A stretch of DNA of 64,000 nt, from assembly GCA_018268595.1 (NCBI GenBank), contig JAFDWH010000009.1, positions 186,001-250,000 of the forward strand, in the 5' to 3' direction. The translations under genes and the position numbers were made by a program. The number at the start of each line of letters is the position of its first letter. Position 1 is the stretch's first letter. A model generated the notes under the pieces. The model did no database searches. It worked only from the letters and a program-made list of their open reading frames with translations, and was not told where the DNA came from. The stretch is from Actinomycetota bacterium (lineage in GTDB: Bacteria; Actinomycetota; Thermoleophilia; Solirubrobacterales; Solirubrobacteraceae). Of the stretch, positions 48,145-57,753 are shown one piece after another.

Positions 48145-49074
48145 TCAGCGCTGCGCAAGCGCCTCGCGGACTGCGTCGTCGAAGCCGAGCGGCGCGTCGT
48201 TGACGCCGGGCGGCGGTGGCGTGCGCACGATCATCTCCTCGCGCAGGCCGTCGATGAGCGGGCGCACGAGGCCGGCGTCGACCGGCGTCACCAGTTGCAC
48301 CCAGTATGAGGAGAGGCGCGGGGTGAGGACCGGCACGCGCAGGACGAGCGGCGGACGGCGGCCGAGGATCCGCGCGGTGCGCTCCATCATCTCGCGGTAG
48401 CTGAGGACGTCGGCGCCGCCCAGCTCGACGTCCCCGGCGACGTCGGAGCGGTCGCGCAGCGCGCGCAGCGCACCGACGACGTCCCGCAGCGCGACCGGCT
48501 GCGTGCGCGTGTCGATCCAGCGCGGGCAGACCATCGCCGGCAGCCGCTCGACGAGCGCGCGCAGCATCTCGAACGACGCGCCGCCCGGGCCGACGATCAT
48601 CGCCGCGCGCACGTGCACGAGCTGCGGCACGTGCGCGGCGAGGATCTCGGCGACCTCCTCACGGCTGCGCAGGTGCTCAGACGAGCCCGTGCCGGCGAGC
48701 CCGCCGAGGTAGATCACCCGCGGCACGCCGGCGCGCGCGGCGGCGGCGCCGAACCTCGCGGCCGCCTGCCGGTCGCGCGCGGCGAAGTCGGCGGCGGAGC
48801 CGCTCCCCATCGAGTGGACCAGGTAGTAGGCGACCTCGACGCCGTCGAGCGCGGCGGCGAGGCCTTCGCCGGTGACGACGTCGCCGCGGACGGCGTGGCG
48901 GCGCACCGCCTCCGTCGCCCGCTCGGGCCTGCGCACGAGCGCGCGCAGCTCACCGGGCCGGCCGTCCGCCGCCAGGAGCGGCAGCAGGCGGCCGCCGACG
49001 TAGCCGGTGGCTCCGGTGAGCAGGACGGCGGGTATGAGGGAGATACGTTCCCCGTTCCGCCGGCGGTTGCACAC
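48145..49074 (-). CDS. NAD(P)-binding (SDR-like, NmrA-type) protein
   Basis: A protein of about 300 residues. [20 protein letters not shown] is the Rossmann glycine motif, and [13 protein letters not shown] and [19 protein letters not shown] are blocks of atypical SDR proteins related to NmrA and complex I assembly or epimerase-like enzymes. The catalytic Tyr-x3-Lys of classical SDRs is not evident, so a regulatory or reductase role is open. No good start codon is visible close to the Rossmann motif; GTG at 49074 is the nearest in-frame choice. It is divergent from the VOC dioxygenase gene. Confidence 0.82.
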
Positions 49075-49097
49075 ACCGACTTGCCGGCGGGTAGACT

Positions 49098-49115
49098 GAT
49101 TGCACAGGCAACTAC
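49098..49115. promoter_or_regulatory. Candidate MarR-type operator
   Basis: GATTGCACAGGCAACTAC contains TTGC-N4-GCAA; the right half read on the complement, GTAGTTGCC, matches the half-site common in MarR-family operators of actinobacteria. It lies just downstream of a TAGACT box (49092-49097) and upstream of the dioxygenase ribosome binding site, between divergent genes. Confidence 0.45.
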
Positions 49116-49128
49116 TTTGGAGGCGGCG

Positions 49129-50121
49129 GTGCAGCTCGACGGCATCCACCACATCACGTGCATCACCGGCGACGCGCCGCGCAACGTCGACTTCTACGTG
49201 CGCGTGCTCGGCCTGCGCATGGCGAAGAAGACCGTCAACCAGGACGACCCGACCGTCTACCACCTCTTCTACGCCGACGACAGAGGCAGCCCCGGCGCCG
49301 ACCTGACGTTCTTCGAGTACCCGAACGCGCGCCCCGGGCGCGACGGCGCCGGCATGATCCACCGCATCGCGTTCCGCGTCGCCGACGCGGCGGCGCTCGA
49401 CTTCTGGGCCGACCGGCTCGGCGGCGAGGGGATCGCGGTCGAGCGCGTCGGTGACGGCGCGCTGCGCTTCGCCGACCCGGAGGGGCTGGGGCTCGAGCTG
49501 CTGGCCGACGACTCCGGCGACGAGCCGCTGACGGCCGCCGCGCCCGACATCCCCGCGGCGCACGCGCTGCGCGGCTTCGCCGGCGTGCGCGCCTACAGCG
49601 CCGACCCGGCGGCCAGCACGGCGCTGCTGCGCGACGTGCTCGGCTTCGAGCCGCTCGACGGAGGCGCAAGGGGTGCCGGAGCCGACCACGTGGCCGGCGC
49701 AGGCGGGCCCCCCGACGGGTTCGCGAGCGAGTGGGTCTCGCGCGGCCCGCGCCGCGGCGGCTTCTACGGCTACGACCCGGCGCCGGAGGCGCGCGGTGTG
49801 GGCGGCGCCGGCACCGTGCACCACATCGCCTGGACCGCCGAGGACGAGGACATCGAGGCGTGGGACGAGCGCTACCGCGCCGCCGGGCGCCACACCTCCG
49901 GCCTCGTCGACCGCTTCTACTTCAGAAGCGTCTACTCGCGCGAGCCGAGCGGCGTGCTGTTCGAGATCGCGACGCGCGGGCCGGGCTTCGCCGCCGACGA
50001 GCCGCCGGAGGCGATCGGCCGCAGACTGTCGCTGCCGCCGAAGCTGGAGCACCTGCGCGAGCAGATCGAGGCGACGCTGACGCCGCTGCCCGCCGACCCG
50101 CGGGCCGCGCGGGTTCCGTAG
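49129..50121 (+). CDS. VOC family ring-cleaving dioxygenase (glyoxalase/hydroquinone dioxygenase-like)
   Basis: A 330-residue protein of two vicinal-oxygen-chelate modules. GIHHITCITGDAPRNVDFYV begins the first with a metal His; GAGTVHHIAWTAEDEDIEAW is the corresponding strand in the second, and VLFEIATRGPGF holds the metal Glu. These blocks, KKTVNQDDPTVYHLFYAD and DLTFFEYPNA match the LinE/MhqO group, which opens hydroquinones or protects against quinones. GTG at 49129 is preceded by TTGGAGG. A MarR-like operator overlaps its leader, consistent with quinone-responsive control. Confidence 0.88.
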   Translation: MQLDGIHHITCITGDAPRNVDFYVRVLGLRMAKKTVNQDDPTVYHLFYADDRGSPGADLTFFEYPNARPGRDGAGMIHRIAFRVADAAALDFWADRLGGEGIAVERVGDGALRFADPEGLGLELLADDSGDEPLTAAAPDIPAAHALRGFAGVRAYSADPAASTALLRDVLGFEPLDGGARGAGADHVAGAGGPPDGFASEWVSRGPRRGGFYGYDPAPEARGVGGAGTVHHIAWTAEDEDIEAWDERYRAAGRHTSGLVDRFYFRSVYSREPSGVLFEIATRGPGFAADEPPEAIGRRLSLPPKLEHLREQIEATLTPLPADPRAARVP

Positions 50122-51886: not shown

Positions 51887-52129
51887 ATGGCTTCCACCGT
51901 GACCATCCGCGCGACGACCGAGACACGCGACGCGCTCAACGAGCTGGCGAAGCAGGACGGCATCTCGGTGCCGGACCTGCTCGGGCGCCTCGCCGAGCGC
52001 GAGCACGAACGCCGGCTGCTCCACGAGGGGCTTGCGACGCTCGCGGAGATGGGCGACGCCACGCGCGAGGCGTACCTTGGCGAGTGGAACGAGTGGGCCG
52101 AGGCGCCGCTCGACGAGCCGCTCGCATGA
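51887..52129 (+). CDS. Antitoxin with ribbon-helix-helix N-terminus (MazE/MazE9-like)
   Basis: An 80-residue protein. VTIRATTETRDALNELAKQDG followed by SVPDLLGRLAEREHERRLL has the strand-helix-helix form of ribbon-helix-helix antitoxins that accompany MazF toxins in actinobacteria; the acidic tail (EWNEWAEAPLDEPLA) should bind the toxin. The ATG directly follows a TATACT box by 6 bases, so the message is probably leaderless. Its stop overlaps the toxin ATG by 4 bases. Confidence 0.85.
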   Translation: MASTVTIRATTETRDALNELAKQDGISVPDLLGRLAEREHERRLLHEGLATLAEMGDATREAYLGEWNEWAEAPLDEPLA

Positions 52130-52473
52130 GCCCGCCGCGCCAGGGCGAGATCTGGTGGGTCCGCCTCGATCCGACCGAGGGCGGCGAGATCCGCAAGACG
52201 CGCCCGGCGCTCGTGCTGAGCAACGACGGCCTGCATCGCCTGCCGCTGCAGCTCGCGATCGTGGCGCCGCTCACGACGACGCCGACGGGGAGCGCGCTCC
52301 ATGTCGAGATCCGGCTGCCGCACGAGGGCACCGAGCGCGTGACCTACGCGTTGCCGGAGCAAGTCCGCGCGATCTCCCACACGCGGCTCGTGAGGCGGAT
52401 CGGCCGTGCCACGCCTGCCGCGCTCGCCGCCACGCGCAGTCGCGTCAACCTGCTGTTGCGCGACGACCTGTAG
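52126..52473 (+). CDS. mazF: MazF/PemK family endoribonuclease toxin
   Basis: A 115-residue toxin. RQGEIWWVRLDPTEGGEIRKTRPALVL contains the N-terminal strand-loop with the conserved Arg-Pro, followed by AIVAPLTTTP and the late EQVRAISHTRLVRRIG, all typical of MazF. These enzymes cut mRNA or tRNA at short sequences; the specificity here is unknown. It is coupled to the antitoxin gene by an ATGA overlap. It converges with the MerR gene, with one base between them. Confidence 0.93.
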   Translation: MSPPRQGEIWWVRLDPTEGGEIRKTRPALVLSNDGLHRLPLQLAIVAPLTTTPTGSALHVEIRLPHEGTERVTYALPEQVRAISHTRLVRRIGRATPAALAATRSRVNLLLRDDL

Positions 52474-52474
52474 C

Positions 52475-53203
52475 TCAGCCCTTCAGCGTCTTCTGCAGCT
52501 GGCGCTCGACGGCGGCCGTCATCGTCTGCTGGAAGGCGGCGCGGACGGCCTCGCTCGCGAGCGGGCGCAGGCGCGCGAGCGCGTCGCTCAGCAGCGCCCA
52601 CTCCTGCGGCGTGCGCTTCGCCGGGTCGAGCTCGCCGCCGGCGACGTCCTCGACGAACAGGCGCACGAACTGGTCGGCGATCGCGCGCGCGTGGCGCTGC
52701 GTCTGCTCCGCGACCGCGAGCGCGTGCATCGGCGGCACGCCCATCGCCGCCAGCTCCTCCCCCGCGCGCAGCAGCGTCGGGCTCGGCACCTCGTAGCGGC
52801 CGTCGCCGAGCGGGCGGATCAGCTCGAGCCGCTCGGCCTTCTTGATCGCGCGCTGGTCCGTGCTGCCGAGGCGCGCCGTCAGCTCCTCGAGCGTCGTCAG
52901 CTCGGGCTCCTCCTCGGCGAACGCGGTCAGCACCTGGCGGCCGAACGCGAGCACCTCCTCGCTCGCGCCGTTCGCGGCGCCGATCAGCCGCTCGATCGCC
53001 TTGAGGTTGAAGCCCTCGGCCTGCAGGTCCTGGATCAGCCGCAGCCGCGCGACGTGCTCAGGCCCGTAGTAGCCGGTGCGGGCGCGCACCTCCGGCGGCG
53101 GCAGCAGGCCGCGCGACTGGTGCGCGCGGATGTTGCGGACCGTCATGCCGGTCTCGCGCGCGAGCTCGTCGATCGTCAGCTCGCCAGCGCGCCGGTCGCT
53201 CAT
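52475..53203 (-). CDS. MerR family transcriptional regulator
   Basis: A 242-residue regulator. TIDELARETGMTVRNIRAHQSRGLLPPP is the winged-helix domain, followed by RTGYYGPEHVARLRLIQDLQ. No metal-binding cysteines are present, and the long helical C-terminal part (about 150 residues) is of unknown ligand type. ATG at 53203 is chosen because TAGGAT on the complement (53211-53216) lies 7 bases upstream. It is divergent from a large membrane protein gene, and the dyad at 53254-53272 in the shared region is the likely target. Confidence 0.9.
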   Translation of the reverse strand: MSDRRAGELTIDELARETGMTVRNIRAHQSRGLLPPPEVRARTGYYGPEHVARLRLIQDLQAEGFNLKAIERLIGAANGASEEVLAFGRQVLTAFAEEEPELTTLEELTARLGSTDQRAIKKAERLELIRPLGDGRYEVPSPTLLRAGEELAAMGVPPMHALAVAEQTQRHARAIADQFVRLFVEDVAGGELDPAKRTPQEWALLSDALARLRPLASEAVRAAFQQTMTAAVERQLQKTLKG

Positions 53204-53253
53204 CGGGCACATCCTACGGAGCGTTCGCGGCCGGCCGGCGAGCCCACACGCTG

Positions 53254-53272
53254 ACATTGCAGGTTTGAATGT
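53254..53272. promoter_or_regulatory. Dyad in the divergent MerR/membrane protein promoter region
   Basis: ACATT and AATGT flank a 9-base spacer (19 bases in total), embedded in a wider TGACA...TGTCA frame (53252-53276). It overlaps the TTGAAT -35 candidate (53265-53270) of the membrane protein gene, a placement like that of MerR-family sites. Confidence 0.5.
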
Positions 53273-53286
53273 GTCATGGATCGATG

Positions 53287-53292
53287 TAGCAT
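53287..53292 (+). promoter_or_regulatory. Candidate -10 element of the His-rich membrane protein gene
   Basis: TAGCAT, 16 bases after TTGAAT (53265-53270). It abuts the ATG at 53293 and lies 6 bases before the in-frame ATG at 53299, so the second ATG may be the leaderless start. Confidence 0.45.
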
Positions 53293-55236
53293 ATGGGCAT
53301 GCACTTCTTCCTCGCCCTCGCGGCCGCCGCGCCGCCCGCCGCCCCGCCCGCCGGCGGCGCCGCGCTCGGCCAGGTCGCCGGCATGACGGCGGCCGTCACG
53401 CTCTTCACCGCGGCGCTGCTGTGGCTCGGGCTCGGGCACCGCTCCGGCCGCGTGGCCGCGCTCGGCCGCGCCGCCGACGCGCTCGGGCGCCTCACCGGGC
53501 TGCCCGCCTGGGCCGCCCTCCCGCTCGCGCTGTCGGGCAGCTCGCTGCTGCTCGCCGTGATCGGCCTCTACTGGGACGTCTCGCTGCACATCGACCAGGG
53601 CCGCGACCCCGGCCCGCTCGCGAACCCCGCGCACTACTTCATCCTCGTCGGGCTGTACGGGATCTTCGCCGCAGGCTTCCTCGCGATCGCGCTGCCGCGC
53701 GAGCGCCCGGCGACCACGGCGGTGCGGATCGCGCCGGACTGGCACGCGCCGGTCGGCGGCCTGCTGATGGCGGCGTGCGCGTCGTTCGCGCTGCTCGGCT
53801 TCCCGCTCGACGACGTCTCGCACCGCCTGTTCGGCCAGGACGTGACGCTGTGGGGCCCGACGCACCTGATGATGCTCGGCGGCGCCGCGCTGACGCTGAT
53901 CGCCGCGCTCGTGCTGCTGGCGGAGGCGCGGCTGGCGCTGCGCGCGCAGGTGACGTCGCCGGAAGGCGGTCGCTCGCGACTGCCGCACGGCGAAACGCCG
54001 GTGGCCCCCACCGAGACGCCGCTCGCCGCGCGCCTGCGCCGCCTGCGCGTGATCGCCGCCTGCGGCGGGACGCTCGCCGGCCTGTCGATCTTCCAGGGCG
54101 AGTTCGACTACGGCGTGCCGCAGTTCAGCATGCTGTTCCACCCGCTGCTGATCGCGTTCGCCGCCGCGCTCGCGCTCGTGCTGGCGCGCACGCTGATCGG
54201 CCGTGGCGGCGCGCTCGCGGCGGTCGCCTTCTTCCTCGTGCTGCGCGGCGCGCTCGCGCTGCTCGTCGGCGCCGGCTTCGGCGAGACGGTCCCCCACTTC
54301 CCGCCGTACGTCGCCGAGGCGCTGCTGGTCGAGGCGGCCGCGCTGGCGATGGGGGCGGGCGCGATCCGCTCGTTCCGCTTCGGCGCGCTCGCGGGCGCGC
54401 TGATCGCGACGCTCGGCGTGCCGGCCGAGTGGGCTTGGAGCCACGTGTGGATGCCGCTGCCGTGGCCGGCGCACATCCTGCCGGAGGCGATCGCGCTCGC
54501 GCTGCCGGTCGCGATCGCCGGCGGCGTGCTGGGCGCGTTCGTCGCGGGCGGGCTGCGGCTCGACGCCGCGCTCGTCGGGCGCCCGCGCGCGTGGGCCGCG
54601 GCCGGCGCGAGCCTGCTGACGGTCGCGGGCGCGGTCGCGTTCCTGCTGCCGACGAGCGCGCCGACCGGCGCGCACGCGCGGATCGCGCTGCGCACCGTGC
54701 AGGCCGGCGGCGGCCCCGGCGAGGCGACCCGCACGGTCGCGGCGACGATCCGCTTCGAGCCGCCGAGCGCGGTCGCGCACGCCGAGTGGCTGACCGTGAC
54801 CGCGTGGCAGGGCCGCGGCAGACTCGTGGTCGACCGCCTGCGCCCGCTCGGCGGCGGCGCCTACGCGACCACGCGGCCGATCCCGATCGGCGGCGGCTGG
54901 AAGGCGATGATCCGCCTGAACCGCGGACGCGACCTCGCCGCGATCCCGCTCGCGCTGCCGGCCGACGCGGCGATCCCGGTGCCCGCTGTCCCCGCGCGCG
55001 CGCTCGCGACGCGCGCCTTCCAGCCCGACCGGCACGTGCTGCAGCGCGAGCGCAAGCGCGACGTGCCGGCGTACCTGTGGGGGCTCGCCGGGCTCGTCGT
55101 GCTGGGGATCACCTCAGCGCTGCTGCTCGTGCTGGGCTGGGGGCTCGTGCGGCTCGCGCGGCGGGGAGGCGCCCCCGCCAGGCCGGACCCGCAGCCGGCC
55201 GCCGCCGTGCCGCCGCGCGTGCTCACGCACGCGTAG
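53293..55236 (+). CDS. Unrecognised polytopic membrane protein with conserved-looking His/Asp motifs
   Basis: I do not recognise the family. The 647-residue chain has an Ala/Pro-rich N-terminus, about 12 hydrophobic segments up to residue 460, an extracytoplasmic beta-rich region of about 130 residues, then one last helix (LWGLAGLVVLGITSALLLVLG) and a short cytoplasmic tail. Charged and His residues cluster at segment ends: YWDVSLHIDQGRDPG, NPAHYF, PLDDVSHRLFGQD, GPTHLMML, LFHPLL and WSHVWMPLPWPAHILPEA. The pattern suggests metal or haem binding and a redox function, which is inference. Start is ATG 53293 or, by promoter spacing, ATG 53299. Confidence 0.85.
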   Translation: MGMHFFLALAAAAPPAAPPAGGAALGQVAGMTAAVTLFTAALLWLGLGHRSGRVAALGRAADALGRLTGLPAWAALPLALSGSSLLLAVIGLYWDVSLHIDQGRDPGPLANPAHYFILVGLYGIFAAGFLAIALPRERPATTAVRIAPDWHAPVGGLLMAACASFALLGFPLDDVSHRLFGQDVTLWGPTHLMMLGGAALTLIAALVLLAEARLALRAQVTSPEGGRSRLPHGETPVAPTETPLAARLRRLRVIAACGGTLAGLSIFQGEFDYGVPQFSMLFHPLLIAFAAALALVLARTLIGRGGALAAVAFFLVLRGALALLVGAGFGETVPHFPPYVAEALLVEAAALAMGAGAIRSFRFGALAGALIATLGVPAEWAWSHVWMPLPWPAHILPEAIALALPVAIAGGVLGAFVAGGLRLDAALVGRPRAWAAAGASLLTVAGAVAFLLPTSAPTGAHARIALRTVQAGGGPGEATRTVAATIRFEPPSAVAHAEWLTVTAWQGRGRLVVDRLRPLGGGAYATTRPIPIGGGWKAMIRLNRGRDLAAIPLALPADAAIPVPAVPARALATRAFQPDRHVLQRERKRDVPAYLWGLAGLVVLGITSALLLVLGWGLVRLARRGGAPARPDPQPAAAVPPRVLTHA

Positions 55237-56302: not shown

Positions 56303-56502
56303 CCGATCTCCTTCGTCGCGTTTCGCGAGCACGCCGTCCGTGACGTGTTCATGGCTGCTGAAACGCTTCGGATGCAGGGAAGTTGGCCGCGTCCAGGCGC
56401 GTGTGGACAGCGGCGCTGCCGGCGTCCGGACGCGCCAGAACGGCTACATTGACCCATGTCACGTTTCTAGACGCCCCTGCTCCGCAAAGGAATCCAGACG
56501 CC

Positions 56503-57753
56503 ATGGCATCGACGATCGACCTGCCCGAGGCCTCCGGCGAGACGACGTTCTCGCTCGAGCTGACCCAGGACCAGAAGGACGTGCGCGACTGGGTGCACGG
56601 CTTCGCGAGAGACGTCGTGCGCCCCGCCGCGTCCGAGTGGGACGAGCGCGAGGAGACGCCCTGGCCGATCATCCAGGAGGCCGCGAAGATCGGCCTCTAC
56701 GGCTTCGAGGGGCTCGCGCAGTTCTTCGCCGACCCGACCGGCCTCGGCCTGCCGATCGTCAACGAGGAGCTGTTCTGGGGCGACGCCGGCATCGGCATGG
56801 CGATCATGGGCTCCGGCCTCGCCGCCGCCGGCATCTTCGCGAACGGCACCGGCGAGCAGATCGGCGAGTGGATCCCGCAGTGCTTCGGCACCGCCGACGA
56901 CCCCAAGATCGCCGCCTTCTGCGTCTCCGAGCCGAACGCCGGAAGCGACGTGTCGGCACTGCGCACGCGCGCGAAGTACGACGAGGCGACCGACACGTGG
57001 GTCCTCAACGGCCAGAAGGCGTGGGCGACCAACGGCGGCATCGCGAACGTGCACGTGATCGTCGCCTCCGTCGACCCCGAGCTGGGCTCGCGCGGGCAGG
57101 CGTCGTTCGTGATCCCGCCCAACACGCCGGGCCTCGAGATGGGCACGAAGCTGAGAAAGCACGGCCTGCGGGCGTCGCACACGGCCGACGTGTTCCTCGA
57201 CGACTGCCGCATCCCCGGCTCGTGCCTGCTCGGCGGCAGAGAGAAGCTCGACGAGCGCCTCGCGCGCGCCCGCGAAGGCAGAAAGTCGCGCGGGCAGGCG
57301 GCGATGGCGACGTTCGAGGCCTCGCGTCCGACCGTCGGCGCGCAGGCGCTCGGGATCGCGCGCGCCGCCTACGAGTACGCGCTCGACTACGCGAGAGAGC
57401 GCGTCCAGTTCGGCAAGCCGATCATCGAGAACCAGGCGATCGCGTTCGCGCTCGCCGACATGAAGATGGAGATCGACGCCGCACGCCTGCTCGTGTGGCG
57501 CGCCTCCTGGATGGGCCGCAACCAGAAGCCGTTCAGAAACGCCGAGGGCTCGATGTCGAAGCTGAAGGCCGGCGAGGTGGCGGTGTGGGTCACCGAGCGG
57601 GCGATCCAGATCCTCGGCGGCAACGGCTACACGCGCGAGTTCCCGGTCGAGCGGATGCACCGCGACGCGAAGATCTACACGATCTTCGAGGGCACCTCCG
57701 AGATCCAGCGGCTCGTCATCGCGCGCGCGATCTCGGGCATGCAGATCAGATAG
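56503..57753 (+). CDS. Acyl-CoA dehydrogenase (long form)
   Basis: A 416-residue flavoenzyme. AAFCVSEPNAGSDVSAL and WVLNGQKAWATNGG are the FAD and acyl binding blocks, and IFEGTSEIQRLVIARAI near the end has the catalytic Glu position. Compared with the first acyl-CoA dehydrogenase in this window it carries an insert (REKLDERLARAREGRKSRG near residues 247-266). ATG at 56503 follows AAAGGA by 8 bases. The 200-base upstream gap contains the dyad ACAT-N6-ATGT (56447-56460), a possible operator; I see nothing else there. Confidence 0.93.
   Translation: MASTIDLPEASGETTFSLELTQDQKDVRDWVHGFARDVVRPAASEWDEREETPWPIIQEAAKIGLYGFEGLAQFFADPTGLGLPIVNEELFWGDAGIGMAIMGSGLAAAGIFANGTGEQIGEWIPQCFGTADDPKIAAFCVSEPNAGSDVSALRTRAKYDEATDTWVLNGQKAWATNGGIANVHVIVASVDPELGSRGQASFVIPPNTPGLEMGTKLRKHGLRASHTADVFLDDCRIPGSCLLGGREKLDERLARAREGRKSRGQAAMATFEASRPTVGAQALGIARAAYEYALDYARERVQFGKPIIENQAIAFALADMKMEIDAARLLVWRASWMGRNQKPFRNAEGSMSKLKAGEVAVWVTERAIQILGGNGYTREFPVERMHRDAKIYTIFEGTSEIQRLVIARAISGMQIR

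Follow-up and report, generated by a model that had tools for sequence, protein, structure and literature searches.

A probable single-chain relative of the copper membrane monooxygenases encoded beside a MerR regulator in Actinomycetota

The membrane protein gene and its divergent regulator

The window considered here is a stretch of 64,000 nucleotides from the genome of a member of the Solirubrobacteraceae in the Actinomycetota (contig JAFDWH010000009.1, positions 186,001 to 250,000). On its forward strand, at 53293..55236, lies an open reading frame (ORF) for a 647-residue membrane protein, whose affinities and possible function are the subject of this study, and divergently from it, on the reverse strand at 52475..53257, a gene for a MerR-family regulator with a probable start at 53203. 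A first-pass annotation of the window, made from the sequence alone, could assign the membrane protein to no known family, and this was borne out by searches of Pfam and NCBIfam, in which no family matched; among the sequences of the PDB there was likewise no match to the protein or to its 33-sequence profile. The true start of the frame is probably its second ATG, at 53299, judging from the promoter spacing: a -10-like TAGCAT is followed by 6 nucleotides and then by this ATG, with the same layout recurring in many homologues. This TAnCAT-to-ATG spacing suggests that the transcript is leaderless and starts at 53299.

The regulator contains a MerR_1 domain (PF13411; E 3e-21; 75.6 bits against a cut-off of 21.6). 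It has no cysteine after residue 17, and hence no metal-sensing cysteines in its C-terminal part, in agreement with the first-pass description of a divergent MerR protein devoid of metal-binding cysteines. The dyad that had been noted in the shared promoter region corresponds to a palindrome, TGTGTCATGGATCGATGTAGCAT, at 53270..53292 (forward strand), which overlaps the promoter and is probably the MerR operator. Even when as many as 2 mismatches are tolerated it has no second occurrence in the 3.57 Mb genome (one match in the window against 0.02 expected), and its consensus form, TGTNNCAT-N6-ATGTANCAT, is situated just 5' of the start codon in 16 homologous loci, including that of the window. 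The two genes form a pair in the lineage to which the window belongs: at about 22 further loci a MerR homologue lies next to the membrane protein gene, usually divergently, and at one locus (L034) the palindrome is present though the MerR gene is co-directional with the membrane protein gene. Hence, the proposed check for conserved synteny came out positive, and we infer that the MerR protein acts on the palindrome. Upstream of the homologue in five loci (L026, L027, L030, L069 and L094) another palindrome, GTACCGATCGGTAC, takes the place of the MerR-type operator, which suggests a switch of regulator in this lineage.

Fold, ligand motifs and sequence relationships

A full-length AlphaFold2 model of the protein (mean predicted local distance difference test score, pLDDT, 89.6) shows about 13 membrane-length helices, close to the 12 first proposed, together with the outer beta domain that had been placed ahead of the last helix. 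This extracytoplasmic beta domain spans residues 457-590 (54661..55062) and bears a weak YtkA/FixH-like resemblance, the Pfam YtkA and FixH models giving weak matches in homologues; the last transmembrane helix, supported by both the model and hydropathy, comprises residues 593-626 (55069..55170). When the N-terminal half (residues 20-233; 53350..53991) was modeled separately (pLDDT 90), a Foldseek search of the PDB ranked chain C of 7s4h, a PmoC subunit, first with a probability of 0.99, and VIA-align also placed 7s4h_C at the top (Z 10.6, root mean square deviation, rmsd, 4.7 over 179 residues), superposing model residues 5-208 on PmoC 85-280. In a VIA-align comparison of the whole model with the PDB the best eleven matches were all PmoA/AmoA chains (Z 8.4-12.8), covering model residues of about 234-425 and thereby defining a PmoA/AmoA-like C-terminal half (residues 234-425; 53992..54567); 9cl6_B, for instance, aligned with residues 241-423 at Z 12.3 and rmsd 3.0 over 173 residues. 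A library of viral structures gave no match to the model. Chance accounts less easily for the predicted N-terminal half resembling PmoC and the C-terminal half PmoA/AmoA, subunits of one and the same enzyme. Moreover, the succession of PmoC-like part, PmoA-like part and beta domain with last helix parallels the operon order xmoC-xmoA-xmoB.

In particulate methane monooxygenase (pMMO) the CuC site is formed by PmoC Asp156, His160 and His173 and the CuD site by Asn227, His231 and His245, with Arg165 nearby (PMC12576850). The membrane protein displays counterparts of both. A CuC-like motif, D95-x3-H99-x4-R104-D105-x8-H114 (53575..53634), corresponds to PmoC D156/H160/R165/H173, and a CuD-like motif, D173-x3-H177-x13-H191, accompanied by D183 and W187 (53809..53865), has a spacing identical to that of PmoC N227-x3-H231-x13-H245. 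Within the 33-sequence alignment D95, H99, R104, D105, H114, D173, D174, H177, D183, W187, P189 and H191 are invariant, and in a more diverse set of 74 sequences all of these columns except that of D174 remain without or almost without variation, other acidic and polar residues being conserved as well. Thus, most of the histidine and aspartate motifs singled out in the first-pass annotation are real and nearly invariant among homologues, the exceptions being LFHPLL and the histidine of WSHVW...PAH, and this ligand conservation supports its suggestion of a membrane metalloenzyme with clustered His/Asp ligands; no support was found for its alternative of a haem protein. The registers of structure and sequence agree, the end offsets of the structural alignment being 80 and 72 and those of the motifs 80 (at D95, which we pair with D156) and 73 (H191/H245).

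Both motifs are present in the known XmoC proteins of seven annotated plasmid loci. A pattern combining the two occurs in 137 of 138 homologous loci (in the remaining one the ORF is truncated) and in 87 of 87 XmoC/PmoC loci, as against none of about 6200 unrelated ORFs. It was also absent from 200,000 shuffled sequences, but as the pattern was composed after both families had been viewed this last figure overstates the independence of the test; the absence from unrelated ORFs gives a fairer idea of the pattern's specificity.

A further connection emerged from a genus-wide search, in which a second, 486-residue mycobacterial subfamily with both PmoC motifs surfaced (L255:2615-4069, L256:3743-5197 and L257:2719-4173). 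A hidden Markov model (HMM) of the window protein's family matches it with E-values of 3e-20 to 4e-27, and an XmoC HMM run against 12,045 ORFs recovered its members as the sole matches (E 2.7e-4, 9e-4 and 0.0098). The Pfam AmoC model aligns with them precisely over the CuC-CuD region (E 0.002, 0.012 and 0.23). Being matched by all three models, the 486-residue subfamily appears to bridge the window family and AmoC by sequence, weakly but specifically, so that sequence and structure agree in direction. In L255 genes for thioredoxin-like and DsbD_TM proteins lie near the 486-residue gene. More distant relatives with altered motifs (e.g. WDVSWHVTIGRESFW..PPH) are encoded at L260:2786-3919 and L262:1-1029 and in L258/L259 and L263; they suggest a wider unexplored superfamily.

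Distribution and gene neighborhood

The membrane protein has homologues in 37 of the 61 relatives examined, in 36 (about 1 in 8) of the 296 Actinomycetota species genomes sampled and in 81 of 118 species belonging to a large genus. This genus is probably Mycobacterium, as the search started from a Mycobacterium gastri protein and the best copy shows 98% identity to it. Of the matches from 84,980 scanned species genomes, the best 80 were all actinobacterial, mainly from Mycobacterium and Solirubrobacterales. The protein is hence common in soil actinobacteria and mycobacteria, and no annotation found here names it; one plasmid copy, with CopC and CtaG-type genes beside it, is annotated as a 'hypothetical protein'. 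Within the large genus named above, a genome of 3.2 Mb contains a fragmented copy with stop codons (G433:C72:38881-39530), as in genome decay. The superfamily has been described in terms of three genes, xmoC, xmoA and xmoB (PMC6215863), and the open-licence literature yielded no description of a fused or actinobacterial relative of the present kind. The first-pass characterization of the system as undescribed accordingly holds with respect to annotation, but it missed that the protein belongs to the known superfamily of pMMO and ammonia monooxygenase (AMO).

Downstream of the membrane protein gene an acyl-CoA dehydrogenase is encoded on the same strand at 56383..57753. Homologues of this gene occur near the membrane protein gene in both Solirubrobacterales and mycobacteria, at distances of up to 3.9 kb in a few of the former and in about 12 mycobacterial loci. 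Among 24 matches in the genome to the mycobacterial neighbor the window copy is by far the best, at 57% identity with the next at 42%, and the proximity thus appears to have been conserved between orthologues across both lineages. At nearly all mycobacterial loci the membrane protein gene is followed, in an operon, by genes for a cupredoxin lipoprotein, whose HxH is nearly invariant, and for a second polytopic membrane protein of 430 residues; in Saccharopolyspora this pair is divergent, and in one relative a co-oriented gene cluster, with the membrane protein gene first, also encodes a CopC/CopD fusion, a YcnI-like (DUF1775) protein and the 430-residue protein. Beside the window's own copy of the gene no cupredoxin was recognized.

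The 430-residue partner, which we designate the 'AHGLGG' protein (L235:656-2344; G000:C10:1001-2329), belongs to no Pfam family, is present in 55 of the 61 relatives, being more widespread than the membrane protein family itself, and often adjoins the HxH cupredoxin and copper genes (CtaG, YcnI, CopC/D). The notion that it is a further relative of PmoA or PmoC is unsupported. For a possible connection of this partner with the name 'fenitrothion hydrolase' the open-licence literature yielded nothing useful.

Several other genes lie in the vicinity. Those for a TetR regulator and a secreted EF-hand-like protein are indeed situated downstream as first described; they show no conserved linkage, having been found in no other locus, and were rejected as parts of the system. 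Directly before the MerR gene, at 52127-52473 (forward strand), is an ORF for a MazF/PemK-like toxin, the antitoxin of which is probably encoded just upstream. A glyoxalase/ring-cleaving dioxygenase-like gene at 48613-50121 (forward strand) has a homologue of about 54% identity near the membrane protein gene in L031 and possibly forms part of a wider conserved neighborhood. In Mycobacterium gastri (L043:6448-15211) the operon lies between apparent biotin genes, with bioB on one side and bioD, bioF and bioA on the other.

Functional interpretation and comparison with known systems

The fold, the ligand conservation, the sequence bridge to AmoC, the operator and the synteny were each established computationally, and in light of them the 647-residue protein is very probably a divergent single-chain member of the pMMO/AMO superfamily. 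Several observations nevertheless weigh against this assignment or against a monooxygenase role. Direct sequence or profile comparison of the protein with PmoC or PmoA gave nothing significant, and profile-profile comparison with small alignments of XmoC, XmoA and XmoB was likewise not significant; the top local alignment obtained from a deeper profile of the family brings the CuC motif into the anticipated register, at a non-significant P of 0.1. The Pfam AmoC model (PF04896) does not match the protein, and its matches to the 486-residue subfamily, at 11-18 bits, lie under the curated cut-off of 26.7. For the PmoA-like half the support is structural alone; VIA-align itself warns that Z below about 13 may be due to chance for helical bundles, and since non-related helical bundles also score just behind PmoC, the structural scores alone are no proof of homology. 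The CuD-like site, both histidines of which are retained at the PmoC spacing, has Asp where PmoC has Asn, in the window protein and throughout its alignment. No CuB histidines could be made out in the chain, and its profile comparison with PmoB gave no match; any derivation of the beta domain from PmoB would be conjectural. The PmoB (PF04744) and AmoC models found no match in the window genome either, but as the controls also gave none this does not prove absence. Finally, the copper-homeostasis genes in the neighborhood are also compatible with a role in copper handling.

The lack of a significant direct profile match, the weak E-values from Foldseek and the fact that Z of 10-13 can arise by chance among helical bundles would accommodate a coincidental likeness to PmoC and PmoA, the protein being instead an unrelated transporter or another metalloenzyme, for instance a zinc or di-iron membrane enzyme. 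This is improbable, as each half matches a different subunit of the same complex, the ligand spacing is both nearly identical and specific, and the XmoC and Pfam AmoC models match the intermediates exactly over the ligand region. Even less credible is an inactive remnant of a copper membrane monooxygenase, serving after loss of catalysis as a MerR-controlled sensor, signaling scaffold or membrane anchor: the Asp at CuD, the want of an evident PmoB-like CuB site and the separation of the partner cupredoxin as a lipoprotein would fit it, but the ligands are nearly invariant across widely diverged homologues, which is not expected if the function of the site had been lost. The main rival, which we consider unlikely though a good deal less so than either of these, is a protein derived from such monooxygenases that employs the PmoC sites for uptake, storage, sensing or handover of copper, e.g. 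to oxidases or the cupredoxin, with no oxygenase chemistry. The CopC, CopD, YcnI-like DUF1775, CtaG and cupredoxin neighbors in several genomes, the weakly YtkA/FixH-like beta domain and the frequent control of metal genes by MerR regulators all favor it. Against it, the retention of both PmoC sites, of a whole PmoA-like half and of other acidic and polar residues points to a role beyond binding; for copper handling the acyl-CoA dehydrogenase as a conserved neighbor is unexpected; and the MerR protein lacks cysteines of the metal-sensing type.

We therefore prefer, with a probability of roughly 0.6, to explain the locus as a whole as encoding a MerR-controlled, single-chain divergent copper membrane monooxygenase. 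On grounds of homology and genomic context the protein in all likelihood binds copper, and it is reasonably probable that it acts as a monooxygenase. More tentatively, and at somewhat less than even odds, it might be a functional one-piece enzyme, widespread in mycobacteria and soil actinobacteria, for which a stand-alone cupredoxin substitutes for PmoB and which acts on a small hydrophobic substrate such as a trace alkane or a lipid-derived compound. The possibility of a resistance system raised by the first-pass annotation is unsupported; neither non-conservation of the ligands nor an absence of MerR linkage, two of the outcomes named beforehand as counting against its proposal, occurred.

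As regards copper occupancy, O2 chemistry, electron source and MerR binding, we infer the following scheme. Copper would be held within the membrane by D95/H99/H114 at the CuC-like site and by D173/H177/H191 at the CuD-like site, the latter of which may activate O2, as has been proposed for pMMO. Either the quinol pool or a partner protein could supply the electrons, a small hydrophobic substrate would be hydroxylated, and the product might pass into acyl-CoA metabolism (compare the acyl-CoA dehydrogenase gene conserved nearby). Transcription would be under the control of the linked MerR protein via the palindrome overlapping the predicted leaderless promoter.

Copper membrane monooxygenases control the oxidation of methane and ammonia, and their catalytic copper site is still debated. 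A one-chain relative could offer a simpler system in which to study the roles of CuC and CuD, as well as an outgroup for tracing how the superfamily evolved. It would also represent a candidate oxidation activity in about one-eighth of the sampled Actinomycetota species and in most sampled species of one genus, probably Mycobacterium.

Among known regulators, the MerR protein is comparable to the FtsR-like MerR_1 class, with which it shares the N-terminal DNA-binding domain, scoring over the cut-off; it differs in its longer C-terminal part lacking metal-binding cysteines, and its score against FtsR itself is weak and far under the cut-off. In comparison with the XmoCAB systems (pMMO, AMO and the actinobacterial Hmo/Bmo), in which three subunit genes form an operon, a single ORF here carries the C- and A-like parts, at only about 10% identity. 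The chain has Asp for Asn at CuD, includes no PmoB with CuB histidines and has no Pfam hit, and in some loci its candidate regulator is a MerR protein; in contrast to the hmo locus of NBB4, no methanol dehydrogenase gene was seen beside its gene. The HxH of the small mycobacterial cupredoxin is reminiscent of that of PmoB (PF04744), though the cupredoxin is a separate lipoprotein, and AmoC (PF04896) is matched weakly by the 486-residue mycobacterial relative, over CuC-CuD and under the cut-off. With XmoCAB the window protein nevertheless shares the PmoC fold and the CuC and CuD motifs in its N-terminal half, the PmoA fold in its C-terminal half, the succession of C, A and a beta domain with a transmembrane helix, and some copper-linked neighbors.
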